A stretch of DNA of 64,000 nt from positions 186,001 to 250,000 of the forward strand of contig SOEU01000002.1 of NCBI GenBank assembly GCA_021646415.1. Direction: 5' to 3'. Position 1 is the stretch's first letter. Each line of letters starts with the position of its first letter. Positions 1 to 37,001 of this stretch are shown here, in pieces. The translations under genes were made by a program, and so were the position numbers. Below the pieces are notes generated by a model that did not search any database, was not told where the DNA came from, and saw only the letters and a list, made by a program, of their open reading frames with translations. The DNA is from Candidatus Brocadia sp. Lineage in GTDB: Bacteria > Planctomycetota > Brocadiia > Brocadiales > Brocadiaceae.

Positions 1-2
1 TA

Positions 3-149
3 GCCAAGAACCTGAAAGCCGAGATTGATGAAGAAAAAATAGAGGCATTCAGAGGAACCGTATCTTTGCCTTTTATCCCGGGCAAGGCAGTGGCAGTGAA
101 GATTATTGATGCAAGGGGGATTGAGAGTTTAAAGATTATCCGCCCCTGA
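3..149 (+). CDS. C-terminal end of an adenine-specific DNA methyltransferase (partial)
   Basis: An open frame enters from the left edge and runs 48 codons to a TGA at 147-149, ending SLKIIRP. The tail contains GTVSLPF, a lysine-rich turn and AVKIIDARGIESL. This resembles the C-terminus of site-specific DNA methyltransferases that are encoded just upstream of a helicase-type restriction subunit. A relic of such a subunit starts at 710 and a complete one at 4426, which supports the reading. The catalytic domain lies outside the window, so the call rests on a short tail and on context. Confidence 0.5.
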   Translation, partial: AKNLKAEIDEEKIEAFRGTVSLPFIPGKAVAVKIIDARGIESLKIIRP

Positions 150-190
150 TGTCCTCCGCTGGCGGAGGTGTCACGAAGTGACGGAGGTGG
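150..190. repeat. GC-rich hairpin repeat copy abutting the methyltransferase stop
   Basis: The copy begins with TGTCC directly after the stop codon at 149. Its core CCTCCGC-TG-GCGGAGG is a perfect 7-bp stem. A second small palindrome, GTCACGAAGTGAC, follows. The layout (TGTCC, stem with a CTGG core, then a G-rich GGAGGTGG end) matches the repeats at 244-275 and, inverted, 664-695. Confidence 0.6.
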
Positions 191-243
191 TGTCACTCCG
201 CAGACGGTAGATGCCAATTTCCCTCATAGTGTGAGAACACGTA

Positions 244-275
244 TGTCCCCCTCTGGAGGGGGGAAGGGGGGGAGG
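244..275. repeat. Left inverted repeat of the DUF559 unit
   Basis: This 32-bp element starts TGTCCCCC, has a hairpin core CCCCCTCTGGAGGGGG and ends GGGGAGG. It matches the reverse complement of 664-695 at 24 of 32 positions by my count. Two of the mismatches are a T-A to G-C exchange on opposite sides of the stem, so the hairpin is kept. It also supplies the purine-rich ribosome-binding stretch for the gene starting at 279. Confidence 0.7.
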
Positions 276-278
276 ACA

Positions 279-704
279 ATGAAAGCCGACGAAACCAACA
301 ATTACACCTACAATAAAAATCTGCAGCCTTTCGCAAACAGATTACGTACAGAAATGACAAAGGCTGAGGCATGTTTGTGGAAATATGTACTAAGGGCAAG
401 GCAAATGAAAGGGTATCAATTCAGAAGACAAAGACCAGTTATGAACTACATAGCTGATTTTATGTGCAAAAAATTGAAACTGATAATCGAAGTGGACGGA
501 TCAACGCATCATTGGGAAGAAACGGCTGTAAAAGATTTGAAGAAGGAAAAAGATCTGATAGATGCAGGATTTAAGGTGTTACGGTTTACAGACGAAGAAG
601 TATTAAAGTGCATTGAAGGTGTGAGAGAAAGTATTGCTTCATCTGTTCAGGAAATAGAGCAATCCACCCCCTTACTCCCCCGCCAGCGGGGGACAACTGA
701 GTAA
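279..704 (+). CDS. DUF559 family endonuclease-like protein
   Basis: The protein has 141 residues. After a short lead it shows the DUF559 pattern: LRTEMTKAEACLW, then YQFRRQRP, YIADFMC, LIIEVDGSTHH and VLRFTDEEV. DUF559 belongs to the PD-(D/E)xK/Vsr-like nuclease superfamily, and the acidic EVDG-x-H motif is intact, so it is probably a DNA endonuclease. An ATG upstream at 168 is in frame, but that lead is only the translated repeat, and GGAGG at 271-275 points to the ATG at 279. The last residues (STPLLPRQRG) are encoded by the right inverted repeat, so the gene is bounded exactly by repeats. It separates the methyltransferase tail from a restriction-subunit relic. Substrate and role are unknown. 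Start confidence is moderate. Confidence 0.75.
   Translation: MKADETNNYTYNKNLQPFANRLRTEMTKAEACLWKYVLRARQMKGYQFRRQRPVMNYIADFMCKKLKLIIEVDGSTHHWEETAVKDLKKEKDLIDAGFKVLRFTDEEVLKCIEGVRESIASSVQEIEQSTPLLPRQRGTTE
664..695. repeat. Right inverted repeat of the DUF559 unit
   Basis: This 32-bp element is the inverted partner of 244-275. It reads CCACCCCC, then the core CCCCCGCCAGCGGGGG (a perfect 7-bp stem around CA), then ACA. It lies inside the 3' end of the DUF559 frame and is translated as part of its tail. Confidence 0.7.
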
Positions 705-709
705 GAACC

Positions 710-763
710 ATGAAAAATATTGACAATCTCATCATCAATTCCCCTTATGAAGAACCACAGCAG
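710..763 (+). pseudogene. Relic of a restriction-subunit N-terminus
   Basis: The first 18 codons (MKNIDNLIINSPYEEPQQ) match the first 18 of the complete subunit at 4426 (MKTIDKLIINSPYEEPKQ) at roughly 80% of bases. The resemblance then stops abruptly. The open frame continues to 955, but the rest looks like no protein I know. This is therefore the surviving 5' end of a second, divergent helicase-nuclease subunit that once followed the methyltransferase. Confidence 0.7.
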
Positions 764-920
764 TGCGGTTGGGTCAAGCGCAACGGACTCAACACATATC
801 TTTTAATTATGATGGAAGAGGACAAATGGAAGATAGAAGGGCTGGGGGAGAGGTTCTGTAGGGACGGGGGAAGAGGAATAATGATAAAAATATCAAAAAC
901 AAGACCCTGCCCCCGTTCTG

Positions 921-1058
921 GAAGCCTATTCCGATCTTGGGGTTGCCTATTATGATAAAGGTAATAAGGGGAGGGCAATCTCTAATTTTCAAAAGGCTTG
1001 CGATATGAGATATGAATCAGGCTGTAGGAATTTGCAAAAGGCTTTAGAAAACCGGTAG
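921..1058 (+). pseudogene. Fragment of a TPR/Sel1-like repeat protein
   Basis: A frame with no start codon, opened by a stop at 885-887, reads EAYSDLGVAYYDKGN, then AISNFQKACDM and CRNLQKALENR, and ends at TAG 1056-1058. The spacing of A, Y, G and A residues is that of a tetratricopeptide or Sel1-like helix pair. With no start codon and only about one repeat left, it is best read as a broken gene end carried in with the island. Confidence 0.45.
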
Positions 1059-3241: not shown

Positions 3242-3310
3242 GGAAGGGAGAAATAGCTGATGGGAAGAAAAAGCCATATAGAATTGCCAAAAGACAAGAT
3301 TGCCGATTTT
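3242..3310 (+). repeat. Direct repeat, copy 1 (leader and 5' end of MNT gene)
   Basis: The ribosome-binding leader GGAAGGGAGAAATAG and the first 17 codons of the MNT gene recur at 3660-3728 with only a few changes. The offset is 418 bp. The coding sequences diverge after this block. Confidence 0.7.
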
Positions 3311-3580
3311 TGCAGGAAATGGAAGATTCGGGCATTTTCCATTTTTGGGTCGGTATTGAGGGAGGACTTCCGTCCGGACAGTGATATTGATGTGCTTGTA
3401 ACCCTCTCGGAAGAGGCAAACAATACCCTGTTTGACCTTGTTCATATGAAAGAAGAACTTGAGCAGATTTTGGGAAGAGGGGTTGATTTGGTCAGCCGCC
3501 GGGGCATAGAATCCAGCAGAAACTATCTCCGCAAAGAGGCTATTTTAGGAACAGCAGAGACCATATATGCAGAGAGATAG
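3260..3580 (+). CDS. MNT-domain nucleotidyltransferase, MntA-type antitoxin
   Basis: The protein has 106 residues, about the usual length for the family. It shows the nucleotidyltransferase signature GSVLREDFRPDSDID with G30-S31 and D42-x-D44, which fits the GSx10DxD motif. MntA proteins of this family inactivate a partner HEPN ribonuclease (HepT) by adding AMP to a tyrosine near its active site. Here the expected HepT gene does start at 3567, overlapping the end of this gene, but it is internally deleted, so this antitoxin has no cognate toxin beside it. GAAGGGAG upstream is a good ribosome-binding site. Confidence 0.85.
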   Translation: MGRKSHIELPKDKIADFCRKWKIRAFSIFGSVLREDFRPDSDIDVLVTLSEEANNTLFDLVHMKEELEQILGRGVDLVSRRGIESSRNYLRKEAILGTAETIYAER

Positions 3581-3657
3581 GGCCTACATGCTCGATATCA
3601 TTGAGGCAGCAAAACTTGCCATCGTTGGTCAAATCCCTTGAAGAAATTATAAAATAA
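3567..3657 (+). pseudogene. Internally deleted HepT (DUF86) toxin gene
   Basis: Two ends of one gene are fused out of frame. From 3567 the reading MQRDRAYMLDIIEAAKLA is the typical HepT N-terminus. From 3616, in another frame, LPSLVKSLEEIIK followed by TAA at 3655-3657 is a typical HepT C-terminus. Most of the middle, including the RxxxxxH ribonuclease motif, is missing. In the first frame translation ends at TGA 3639-3641 after 24 residues. The toxin is therefore dead while its antitoxin at 3260 is intact. Confidence 0.7.
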
Positions 3658-3659
3658 TT

Positions 3660-3728
3660 GGAAGGGAGAAATAGCAGATGGGAAGGAAAAGTCATATAGA
3701 ATTGCCGAAAGACAAGATTGCCGAATTC
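3660..3728 (+). repeat. Direct repeat, copy 2 (leader and 5' end of MNT gene)
   Basis: This is the second copy of the block at 3242-3310. It begins directly after the HepT relic and includes the ribosome-binding site and first codons of the gene at 3678. Confidence 0.7.
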
Positions 3729-3983
3729 TGTAAGCGGCACCATATACGCAAGCTGTCGCTGTTCGGTTCCTGCCTGCATGGCGATTTTGGGCCGGATAGC
3801 GATATAGACCTTCTCGTTGAGTTTGAGCCGGACCATATTCCAGGTCTCATAACCTTATCAGGCATGGAGATTGAATTAAGTGAAATCATCGGACGCAAAG
3901 TAGACTTGAGGACACCGGAAGATTTAAGCCGCTATTTCCGCAAGGAGGTAGTCGAATCGGCAGAGGTGCAATATGTGCAGTAA
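3678..3983 (+). CDS. MNT-domain nucleotidyltransferase, MntA-type antitoxin (second copy)
   Basis: The protein has 101 residues. Its first 17 are almost the same as in the gene at 3260 ([15 protein letters not shown]), after which the two differ strongly. The nucleotidyltransferase motif is [15 protein letters not shown], with G30-S31 and D42-x-D44 intact. Its C-terminus ends ESAEVQYVQ. No HepT partner follows: the next real gene is a VapB-like antitoxin. It is therefore an orphan antitoxin, or it acts on another HEPN protein such as those at 1165 or 2175. That second option is speculation. Confidence 0.8.
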
Positions 3984-4425: not shown

Positions 4426-7251
4426 GTGAAAACTATAGATAAGCTCATCATCAATTCCCCTTACGAAGAACCAAAGCAGTATTGGGAATACATAAGAGAT
4501 ACACGGGAATTCGTCAAGCAGGACGGCAGAAGGCCCGCTGGGTATATTGTGGCTTCCGAAAGTTCCAGATCGTTTGATGACCCCGGAACTTTTATTGAAA
4601 TTAAGTTGGTCAATACAATTCGCCCGAGGGTGAAGAAGTGGAGAGAAGACGGCTATCCAGGAGTTACGGGGATTACAAAGAGGCTGCTGCAACACTGGCA
4701 AGACCCGGAAGAACGTAAAGACCGGAGGTTTTTCTTTTGTCAGTTAGAGGCCATTGAAACACTGATATGGCTTACTGAAGCGCCGGAAGCAGACCGCACG
4801 GGCATTGACATCCCAGGTGACGGTGGGGCATTTTCGCGATGGTGCAGCAAGATGGCTACGGGTTCTGGTAAAACGATTGTCATGAGTATGCTTATTGCGT
4901 GGCAAGTCCTGAATAAAGTAGCTAATAGTAAAGACCCACGTTTCTCTAAAAATATTTTGGTTGTTGCACCGGGTTTGACAGTTCGTAATCGTTTATCGGT
5001 ATTGAATCCCTTCGACAAGCAAAATTACTTTGAAGATTTTAATATCATTCCATCGGGTTTGATGGAAGCACTCCGGCAGGGAAAGGTAAAAATCATTAAC
5101 TGGCACACCCTTGCCTGGGAGAGTGAAGAAAGATTGGCAAAGAAGAAGACCGTTGACAAACGGGGCGCCAAAAGTGACGAGGCATATGTGCGGGATGTGC
5201 TGGAAGATATGGCAAATGCAACAAAGCTTGTCGTTATCAATGATGAAGCACACCATGCCTGGCGTATTCCGGCAGAAAGTAAAATTAAAGGCGTAAAGAA
5301 AGAAGATATTGAAGAAAGCACTGTTTGGGTAGGTGGACTGGACAGGATTCACAGGGCAAGGGGAATCATCCGGTGTTTTGACTTATCGGCAACACCATTT
5401 GCCCCATCAGGCAAAAAAGCAACTGAAGAGGCATTGTTTCCCTGGATTGTCAGCGATTTCGGTTTGAATGATGCGATTGAGTCAGGCCTGGTAAAAACGC
5501 CGAGGGTTGTAATCCGTGATGATGCCAATGTAGATGCGAATCTGCGTTCACGGCTCTATCACATTTACATGGATGCTACGGTAAAAGATGACATTAACCA
5601 AAAGGCAGAAGAAAACGTGCCTCTTCCTGACCTCATCAAAAATGCCTATCTGCTTTTAGGTAAAGACTGGAAGGCCGCTAAAGACGGTTGGGAAAAGGCT
5701 GGGCATAAAATTCCACCGGTGATGATAACCGTAGCAAACACCACGTACACATCAGCCCGCATCAAATATGCCTTTGATCACGATGCCTTTTTACTATCCG
5801 TTGCCGGGTTGGGAGATTTGTGCGATCAAGAGAAAACATTGCAGATTGACAGCAGGATTCTTGATAAAGCAGAAGCTGAAACAGAATCTATAGATGTCAT
5901 TCCGAGCGAAAGCGAGGAATCTCAGGATGAAGATTCTTCGGCTATGCTTCAGAATGACAAAAAGAAATCAACCAAAAAACAACAGGCTGAATTATTAAGA
6001 AAAACGGTTGATACCGTTGGCAAGATCGGAGAACCCGGTGAGCAAAAACAAAATGTGATTTCCGTAGGTATGCTCAGCGAAGGTTGGGATGCTAAAACAG
6101 TTACTCACATCATGGGCTTACGGGCATTTAGCAGCCAGCTATTGTGCGAACAGGTGGTAGGCCGTGGTTTGCGGAGAACTTCTTACGATGTAGGAAAGGA
6201 CGGTTTATTTGAGCCTGAGTATGTGAATATCTTCGGTGTGCCTTTCACATTCATACCTCATGAGGGAACCGACGGGCCTCCCCCACCGCCTCCACCCCCA
6301 AAAACCAGGATTGAACCTGTTAAAGAAAAAGCGGAACACAAAATTTCATTCCCTAACATCCTGAGGATTGACCATGTTTACAAACCGCAACTCTCTCTTA
6401 ACCTGGAAAAGGTCAAACCGCTTGAACTTGATCCATATGAATCAATCACAGAGGCAGAGTTGGCAGCAATTATCGTGGGGAAACCAAATCCTGCGGCGCT
6501 TACAGAGATTGATTTGAAAGAAATCGGTGAAAAATTCCGTATGCAGTCCATCATTTTCAGAATTGCATCCTCGATTTACAACTCAGAGAAGAAACCAGAC
6601 TGGAAAGGAAGCAAGGAAACGTTTTTGATTCAACTTATTGGAATTATTGGGCGATTCATTTATTCGGATAAAATCAGGATAAAAAATCCATTATTCAATG
6701 AGGATGAAGTAAGAAAGAGAATCCTGATTATGCTTAATATGAACAAGGTCATTCAACATATCTGGAATGAACTACGTGCAGAGAATACGACACAACTCAC
6801 ACCGGTTTTTGACAAGGAACATCCCATCCGTTCGACTGCTGATGTACGCACATGGTGGACAAGCAAACCGTGTGAGGATTTTGAGAAAACCCATATCAAC
6901 TTTACCGTTGTTGACAGTAAAATGGAATTTCTTGAGGCAAGAACCATCAACGATTGCGAGTTTGTAGAATCATTCGTAAAGAACGACCATTTAGGTTTCA
7001 CCATTCTTTACAACTACCAGGGAATTATCAGAAGATATTTTCCAGACTTTATTATCAAATTGAAGAATGGAGAACGTCTCATCCTTGAAACCAAAGGACA
7101 AGATAGCGAACAGAATAAAACCAAGAGGGCATTTTTAGATGAATGGTGCAGAGCAGTGAATCATCATGGTGGTTTTGGCAAATGGATTGGGGCAGTATCA
7201 TTTGACCCGAATGACCTTAATAAGATCATAAGCGATGCTGTAAGTAAATGA
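4426..7251 (+). CDS. Helicase-nuclease restriction subunit (type III Res-like, DEAD/DEAH family)
   Basis: The protein has 941 residues. Superfamily 2 helicase motifs are complete: MATGSGKT (GSGKT at 146-150), NDEAHHAW (DEAH at 273-276), LSATPF (SATPF at 321-325) and VVGRGLRRT (GRGLRR near 579-584). The C-terminal region has YFPDFIIKLKNG near 872 and LILETKGQD near 888, a PD-(D/E)xK nuclease signature. It should translocate on DNA and cut it as the restriction partner of an adenine methyltransferase; the tail of a candidate partner lies at 3-149. The start is GTG with a poor ribosome-binding site, but the relic at 710 begins at the same point with ATG, which supports it. Two oddities: residues about 490-511 come from a palindromic repeat inserted in frame, and a run of eight prolines follows near residue 620. 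Confidence 0.85.
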   Translation: MKTIDKLIINSPYEEPKQYWEYIRDTREFVKQDGRRPAGYIVASESSRSFDDPGTFIEIKLVNTIRPRVKKWREDGYPGVTGITKRLLQHWQDPEERKDRRFFFCQLEAIETLIWLTEAPEADRTGIDIPGDGGAFSRWCSKMATGSGKTIVMSMLIAWQVLNKVANSKDPRFSKNILVVAPGLTVRNRLSVLNPFDKQNYFEDFNIIPSGLMEALRQGKVKIINWHTLAWESEERLAKKKTVDKRGAKSDEAYVRDVLEDMANATKLVVINDEAHHAWRIPAESKIKGVKKEDIEESTVWVGGLDRIHRARGIIRCFDLSATPFAPSGKKATEEALFPWIVSDFGLNDAIESGLVKTPRVVIRDDANVDANLRSRLYHIYMDATVKDDINQKAEENVPLPDLIKNAYLLLGKDWKAAKDGWEKAGHKIPPVMITVANTTYTSARIKYAFDHDAFLLSVAGLGDLCDQEKTLQIDSRILDKAEAETESIDVIPSESEESQDEDSSAMLQNDKKKSTKKQQAELLRKTVDTVGKIGEPGEQKQNVISVGMLSEGWDAKTVTHIMGLRAFSSQLLCEQVVGRGLRRTSYDVGKDGLFEPEYVNIFGVPFTFIPHEGTDGPPPPPPPPKTRIEPVKEKAEHKISFPNILRIDHVYKPQLSLNLEKVKPLELDPYESITEAELAAIIVGKPNPAALTEIDLKEIGEKFRMQSIIFRIASSIYNSEKKPDWKGSKETFLIQLIGIIGRFIYSDKIRIKNPLFNEDEVRKRILIMLNMNKVIQHIWNELRAENTTQLTPVFDKEHPIRSTADVRTWWTSKPCEDFEKTHINFTVVDSKMEFLEARTINDCEFVESFVKNDHLGFTILYNYQGIIRRYFPDFIIKLKNGERLILETKGQDSEQNKTKRAFLDEWCRAVNHHGGFGKWIGAVSFDPNDLNKIISDAVSK
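5895..5959. repeat. Palindromic repeat inserted in frame in the restriction subunit
   Basis: This 65-bp imperfect inverted repeat runs from TGTCATTCCGAGCG to GCTTCAGAATGACA. Its arms pair over about 28 bp with some mismatches. It is translated as DVIPSESEESQDEDSSAMLQ plus NDK and keeps the helicase frame open. The same kind of palindrome (TGTCATTC...GAATGACA) is a widespread dispersed repeat in bacterial genomes, usually between genes. Confidence 0.8.
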
Positions 7252-36692: not shown

Positions 36693-37001
36693 TTGTGCAT
36701 AGGTTGAAGATAAAAGATTAAAAGGGAAATTGTACGGTTATTTAGCTTTTGATGCAGTCGCACCAATAATGAGAGTTATTTCTTTTGATTCCTGGATTAA
36801 ACTAAACATTCTTTTAAAATTAGGCCGGGTTTTAAAAGGCAAAACCCAACGACTTTTCATTTTTACCCACCCCTTAACCCCTCCCAGGAGGGGACTTCTA
36901 AAATTCCCCTCTTGAGAGGGGTAGGGGTGTGTTTATTCATTGCTTAACGAAAAAGTTTGAAATTCCTTGTATAATAGGCAATCCCTTTTTTGTTTTTTTC
37001 T
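36693..37001. other. Intergenic region with a hairpin and an orphan GC-rich repeat pair
   Basis: No credible gene is seen. GGGTTTT and AAAACCC at 36827-36847 form a 7-bp stem without a T-run. A GC-rich repeat pair lies at 36868-36931 and is listed separately. Confidence 0.5.
36868..36931. repeat. Orphan double hairpin related to the DUF559 boundary repeats
   Basis: Two inverted units lie back to back. The first is CACCCC then CCCCTCCCAGGAGGGG; the second is CCCCTCTTGAGAGGGG then TAGGGGTGTG, 11 bases later. Each has a perfect 7-bp hairpin, and together they form one large inverted repeat. The first resembles the repeat at 664-695 and the second that at 244-275, but no nuclease gene lies between or near them. 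Confidence 0.65.

Follow-up and report, generated by a model that had tools for sequence, protein, structure and literature searches.

DUF559 nuclease genes lie between inverted intrastrand triplex motifs: a candidate family of nuclease-driven mobile elements

The window, which denotes here the whole 64,000-nucleotide stretch of Candidatus Brocadia sp. that was analyzed, carries near its start a small gene for a free-standing DUF559 nuclease, located between the end of a methylase gene and the relic of a restriction subunit (Table 1). An alternative start at the upstream GTG 168 would yield a protein of 178 residues. The gene is bounded by inverted hairpin repeats, and a related third copy is found further upstream. 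This arrangement, together with the nature of the two neighbors and the compensatory changes among the three stems, had been proposed in a preliminary description made from the sequence alone, and it was confirmed on every point. The third strand of the left repeat occupies the position expected for a ribosome-binding site, directly 5' of the ATG, while the plus strand of the right repeat forms the final codons of the gene. The outer copy belongs to a left module common to the window and genome G005 (locus L024). In a scan of all 64 kb, the motif detector retrieved only the two ends of the DUF559 unit, one solo pair of motifs and one spurious A/T-rich hairpin. Elsewhere in the window (3260-3983), adjacent nucleotidyltransferase (MNT-like) genes have identical first 15 residues, indicating a local duplication.

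Table 1. Positions of the DUF559 unit, its neighbors and the comparison sites in the window
Feature	Position	Strand	Details
C-terminus of N6/N4 DNA methylase	1..149	+	PF01555
Outer third copy of the repeat	150..190	+	Stem CCTCCGC/GCGGAGG, third strand GGAGGTGG at 183-190
Left end, triplex motif	244..276	+	Stem CCCCCTC/GAGGGGG, linker, third strand GGGGGAG(GA); detector score 14
DUF559 nuclease gene	279..704	+	141 residues from ATG 279; PF04480, E = 2e-32
Right end, triplex motif	664..696	-	Stem CCCCCGC/GCGGGGG, linker, third strand GGGGGTGGA; detector score 15.5
Relic that begins like a type III restriction subunit (MKNIDNLIINSPYEEP...)	710..955	+	Aligned to the intact paralog (4426) and to L024
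Intact paralogous restriction subunit without DUF559 element in front	4426..7251	+	PF04851; alignment; comparison site
Solo triplex-motif pair without nuclease, third strands outward	36867..36930		CACCCCTTAACCCCTCCCAGGAGGGG...CCCCTCTTGAGAGGGGTAGGGGTGTG; motif detector

Each repeat is tripartite: a pyrimidine arm pairs with a purine arm, and a second run of purines repeats the latter in mirror image. The second purine runs, which the preliminary description had overlooked, are GGGGGAGG on the left, GGGGGTGG on the right and GGAGGTGG in the outer copy. They mirror the 3' arm of the stem and change with it, as GAGGGGG is matched by GGGGGAG on the left, GCGGGGG by GGGGGTGG on the right and GCGGAGG by GGAGGTGG in the outer copy. 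Stem and third run covary already within the window, with A kept as A and C replaced by T. The general rule relating the 3' arm of the hairpin to the second purine run is A to A or T, and C to T, with a linker of usually 2-5 nt between the hairpin and the third purine strand. As read from the sequence, this build has the layout of a purine triplex of the antiparallel kind: the purine run would fold back onto the 3' arm, in antiparallel orientation, and add a third strand.

The mirror rule was evaluated on hairpins picked by their stem alone, by comparing each end's own tail with the tails of other ends. The third-strand mirror score was 6.30, versus 4.85 ± 0.12 with permuted tails (maximum of 5.23 in 1000 permutations); this permutation gives no strict probability since related rows are not independent, although the rows do span many phyla. 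A direct-copy rule for the tails gave almost no excess in the same permutation. Counted in this manner, the compensatory changes speak in favor of the structured element first proposed, and the third strand is, judging by these comparisons, real in evolution.

The match between the left and right repeats of the window has a score of 32, when random windows have a 99th percentile of 26 and a maximum of 36. By itself it is just modestly above chance; the significance of the repeats comes from the loci of relatives. Matched inverted ends scoring at least 28, above the random 99th percentile, were found at 60 of the 76 DUF559 loci of the order, and matched inverted ends scoring at least 30 at 19 of 22 DUF559 loci of the wider phylum. 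Hairpin repeats flank both sides at all seven DUF559 places of the Brocadia genome. The comparison also covered 80 named species of Nitrospirota, Spirochaetota, Desulfobacterota, Planctomycetota, Omnitrophota, Proteobacteria, candidate phyla and others. There, the triplex motif is present within 180 bp of small DUF559 genes in 86% of cases on the left, 84% on the right, 92.5% on either side and 77.5% on both, as against 1.2% of control windows from the same contigs (n = 570). DUF559 homologs do have repeats at their borders, and these repeats are not equally common at random genes, two points on which the preliminary description could have failed.

The association has a regular layout. Among the 80 species, the motifs are oriented inward in 69 cases on the left and 67 on the right, and outward in 14 and 12, respectively. 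The median distance from the motif to the conserved domain is 25 nt on the left and 20 nt on the right. The third strand ends at a median of 4 nt from the start codon, and the reading frame enters or crosses the right motif in 54 of 67 cases. Related hairpins accompany DUF559 loci on plasmids of Pseudanabaena, Picosynechococcus, Deinococcus, Neisseria, Azospirillum and Sinorhizobium, with third strands that are weaker or otherwise oriented. Hairpins with other tails, for example TCTCCCCC...GGGGGAGA and TCCGCCCCC...GGGGGCGGA, were noticed at alphaproteobacterial DUF559 loci (L145 and L289-L303) located on a Sinorhizobium plasmid and on small viral contigs, for which this host group is a guess. 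They are perhaps a variant without triplex. A phage origin of the unit was considered and rejected, as phage matches are few and most of them have no good triplex ends.

A tree was built with 62 nucleases from 31 genomes. Mapping the type of end onto it required 7 changes, for a minimum of 6 and a mean of 39 when shuffled, whereas the host genome required 53. From this mapping, the motif type tracks the nuclease clade and not the host genome, so that one genome contains nucleases of several clades, and each clade has an end type to itself.

Several comparisons bear on mobility. Pairs of elements with the same type of end generally have no similarity beyond the ends. This was the case for 21 of 21 CTTA-type pairs on the left and 20 of 21 on the right, for 48 and 44 of 55 GCTGGC-type pairs, and for 25 of 28 TYGATGGG-type pairs on each side. 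The LTTGGGAG type differs in that one upstream flank is mostly retained (32 of 45 pairs), indicating that it is inherited in place. The flanks of L021 and L028 were dropped from the unrelated ones, as both loci lie within a larger genus-specific repeat. Sites without the element were found as well. At one conserved gene pair, the DUF559 element lies between the genes in G003 and G007 and is missing in G004 and G005. Two more sites display such presence and absence, and the restriction gene at 4426 of the window is free of the element, unlike its relatives at 710 and in G005 (L024). The search for empty sites suggested by the preliminary description is thus in its favor.

Smaller derivatives are also found. 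Inverted motif pairs about 190 bp apart have the same ends as complete elements, and several enclose remains of a DUF559 gene, as expected of deletion derivatives. The upstream methylase gene contains in-frame solo triplex motifs (L003, 369-440, 610-642 and 974-1006), which are translated into peptides such as LSPSGGGRGEE. At one site of this gene, orthologs have no motif (L307, L313), one (L309, L320, L326), two (L312, L318) or a motif of a different type (L308). These solo in-frame insertions in the methylase orthologs measure 30-33 bp. The Brocadia genome as a whole has 509 overlapping matches to the pattern, versus 28 for a reversed-pattern control, and over the phylum sample the excess of the pattern accompanies the presence of DUF559 (p = 2e-4). 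No target-site duplication was found at the compared sites, where the right edges are precise. The genome comparisons did not resolve a recent DUF559 insertion to its exact junction; two genomes of 96% identity, compared over 200 kb, had composite intergenic indels with no clean junction. From the sequence comparisons taken together, the unit is counted as mobile.

Motifs also occur apart from the nuclease. One motif type occurs 132 times in the relative G030, where no DUF559 match was found; motif pairs with a fixed short spacer lie there inside a repeat with GTAACTATTCAGCG ends (L280-L286). Some members of the genus retain GCTGGC motifs without the GCTGGC nuclease clade. By comparison, some GCTGGC elements of the genus were found nested in a bigger repeat with CATACGTGTTAAG ends, so that another transposase could carry them. 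A genus-specific composite repeat with CATACGTGTTAAGTTAAG ends, in which some GCTGGC units are nested, was observed at L021, at L274-L279 and in the flanks of L028 and L103. The right flank of L103 contains in addition a high-copy repeat of roughly 97 bp.

The AF2 model of the DUF559 protein of the window has a pLDDT of 86.9. The protein matches the homing endonuclease I-Bth0305I (3r3p), with a profile E-value of 7e-6, a Foldseek E-value of 4e-4 and a TM-score of 0.80 of the target. In DUF559, the E, D, E-x-D, H and D positions vary little or not at all. With EDxHD/Vsr-like homing endonucleases such as I-Bth0305I, DUF559 shares the nuclease fold, the core acidic and histidine residues and the existence as free-standing selfish genes. 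It differs in that neither an intron nor an intein nor one conserved target gene is involved, and in that the ends are repeats that travel with the gene. Insertion at a conserved target site was not observed for DUF559, as most copies of the same type are in unrelated flanks, with the exception of the LTTGGGAG type. The nearest solved structure is 3hrl (NGO0050, Neisseria gonorrhoeae), with 42% identity in the fold match, an entry labeled as a putative endonuclease-like protein. The N. gonorrhoeae DUF559 locus L138, which we take from the species alone to be NGO0050 and probably the source family of 3hrl, likewise has related repeats on both sides. The gene lies between two repeats of about 100 bp, each holding a triplex-like motif, but these are in direct orientation.

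The three-part build of the ends, with a pyrimidine arm, a purine arm, a third purine strand and short loops, is identical to that of the intrastrand triplex motifs (TM, or PIT) described by Holder et al. in 2015 (PMC4666352), where earlier work by Hoyne and Maher is cited. The available portion of that article reports triplex formation in solution (CD and NMR, limited to the E. coli motif), and finds no support for stable triplexes in vivo by footprinting. It counts 23 copies in E. coli MG1655, with TM-bearing loci more rearranged than controls; no mobility gene was found near them and their origin was called unclear. The same portion states that close inverted pairs of E. coli TMs always combine one motif of the TTA-linker type with one of the CCG-linker type. 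The published E. coli consensus, CCCTCNCCC N3-6 GGGNGAGGG N3 GGGNGAGGG, is followed at the ends of L194, L199 and L212; in L194 and L212, a left TTA linker is combined with a right CCG linker, as in the inverted pairs of E. coli types A and B. As far as the sequences go, this likeness is a match of form and no proof of descent. Unlike those of the article, the motifs described here delimit a nuclease gene and come in many stem types. Judged from the sequences, the ends match the known class of intrastrand triplex motifs, and this assignment, like the pairing of end type with nuclease clade, goes beyond the preliminary description.

The word nuclease is absent from the available portion of the triplex article (PMC4666352), the available portions of two DUF559 articles (PMC9403480, PMC12308824) do not mention these repeats, and a literature search pairing DUF559 with REP terms returned no paper connecting them. 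E. coli itself has a DUF559 gene, ycjD, the right motif of which is decayed, with a complete motif about 170 bp downstream; the right motif is better preserved in strain KE47. A query spanning sapF-fabI was matched over at least 80% of its length at one place in 3333 of 5426 genomes. The gene is missing in many strains, but ycjD was rejected as a case of a clean empty site because a TetR regulator and an efflux gene are found instead, upstream of fabI, in two strains (region of L137, L262 and L263).

The preliminary description had likened the unit to REP sequences and their RAYT transposases (TnpA_REP). Both indeed have one small nuclease gene enclosed by inverted hairpin repeats, a cognate pairing, and numerous solo copies and pairs (REPINs). 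Here, however, the enzyme is a DUF559/EDxHD nuclease and not an HUH Y1 protein, and the repeat has a mirror third strand. No GTAG or CGTC tag was conserved at the foot of the hairpins when the end sequences were read by eye. The Brocadia genome has Y1_Tnp at 12 places, and none of the 8 loci checked had a triplex motif. An origin of the repeats from RAYT was rejected, as these Y1 loci have no motif and the element encodes DUF559. The motifs of the upstream methylase gene resemble in form the Rickettsia palindromic elements, which are likewise small and interrupt genes without breaking the reading frame.

The unit at about 244-696 is best read as a small mobile element made of a free-standing gene for an EDxHD/Vsr-like nuclease and, as its ends, intrastrand triplex motifs, with the nuclease driving the movement; we give this reading a probability of roughly 0.6. 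The sequences establish its anatomy, the association across phyla, the covariation, the cognate pairing, the unrelated flanks, the presence and absence at sites, the deletion derivatives and the solo insertions. From these we infer that the spread is driven by the nuclease working on its own ends, that the triplex rather than the hairpin alone is what it reads, and a route of copying. The nuclease would recognize its own type of end in single-stranded or extruded DNA, during replication or repair, and would nick or cut beside it. Repair would then copy the ends, with or without the gene, to new places. Solo motifs and motif pairs would be non-autonomous offspring, as are the REPs and REPINs of RAYT transposases. 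The nuclease-borne REP-like element of the preliminary description is in this sense supported by the association, the covariation, the clade-specific ends and the empty sites, its propulsion by the nuclease being still presumed. Against this reading stand the 132 motifs of G030 without DUF559, the GCTGGC motifs without their nuclease clade, the nesting in bigger repeats, the lack of target-site duplication, the LTTGGGAG type that stays in place, the viral hairpins without a good third strand, and the in vivo footprinting.

Some of these observations would suit a homing endonuclease. The motif pair would be the target that a free-standing DUF559 enzyme cuts and into which its gene is copied by repair, the motifs having spread otherwise. 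I-Bth0305I is the closest characterized structural relative, a DUF559 gene has once been placed in the EDxHD homing family (available portion of PMC9403480), motif pairs without gene exist in many genomes, and G030 carries motifs but not the gene. One end type per clade fits a target too, yet the motifs face inward and the gene fills the gap exactly. Since the flanks are also mostly unrelated, unlike in classical homing to one conserved site, we consider homing unlikely. The unit might also be a mere passenger of larger repeats moved by DDE transposases, the nuclease having another job, as GCTGGC units are often nested in CATACGTGTTAAGTTAAG-ended repeats within the genus and the G030 motif pairs in GTAACTATTCAGCG-ended ones. 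This is improbable, for the shared feature examined over the 80 species is the motif itself, other nuclease types in the same genomes have no similarity beyond the motifs, and the bare 30-33 bp motifs of the methylase gene lack such outer ends. Finally, the proximity of the third strand to the start codon and the frequent translation of the right motif as C-terminus could denote a ribosome-binding site, an attenuator or a terminator rather than transposon ends, and the adjacency of the window unit and several others to methylase or restriction genes could denote marks read in defense. Such roles have very little probability when hundreds of solo copies lie away from any nuclease, the motifs are inverted on both sides, and an RNA hairpin has no need for third-strand covariation.

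The pairing with DUF559 points for the first time to a possible origin of bacterial DNA repeats that are widespread and have lacked an explanation, and the presence of matching motif copies around a nuclease family makes the origin of triplex repeats directly testable. More broadly, and as a tentative proposal only, DUF559 nucleases could be the missing mobilizers of bacterial intrastrand triplex repeats, including those of E. coli. They would then define a new type of mobile element, each with a PD-(D/E)XK/EDxHD-type nuclease that recognizes its own ends by their three-stranded fold. The proposal would give a role to a domain whose function is unknown, a second type of enzyme would be capable of running a REP-like system, and the findings would suggest that a three-stranded DNA fold may be an object of selection.

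Two further loci deserve mention. The same 1360 bp are present in G007 and G022, which belong to different genera (L074 and L075), by recent transfer or assembly contamination. On a plasmid of Synechocystis sp. B12 (L147), a DUF559 gene with its motif lies within an apparently split BREX pglX methylase gene.
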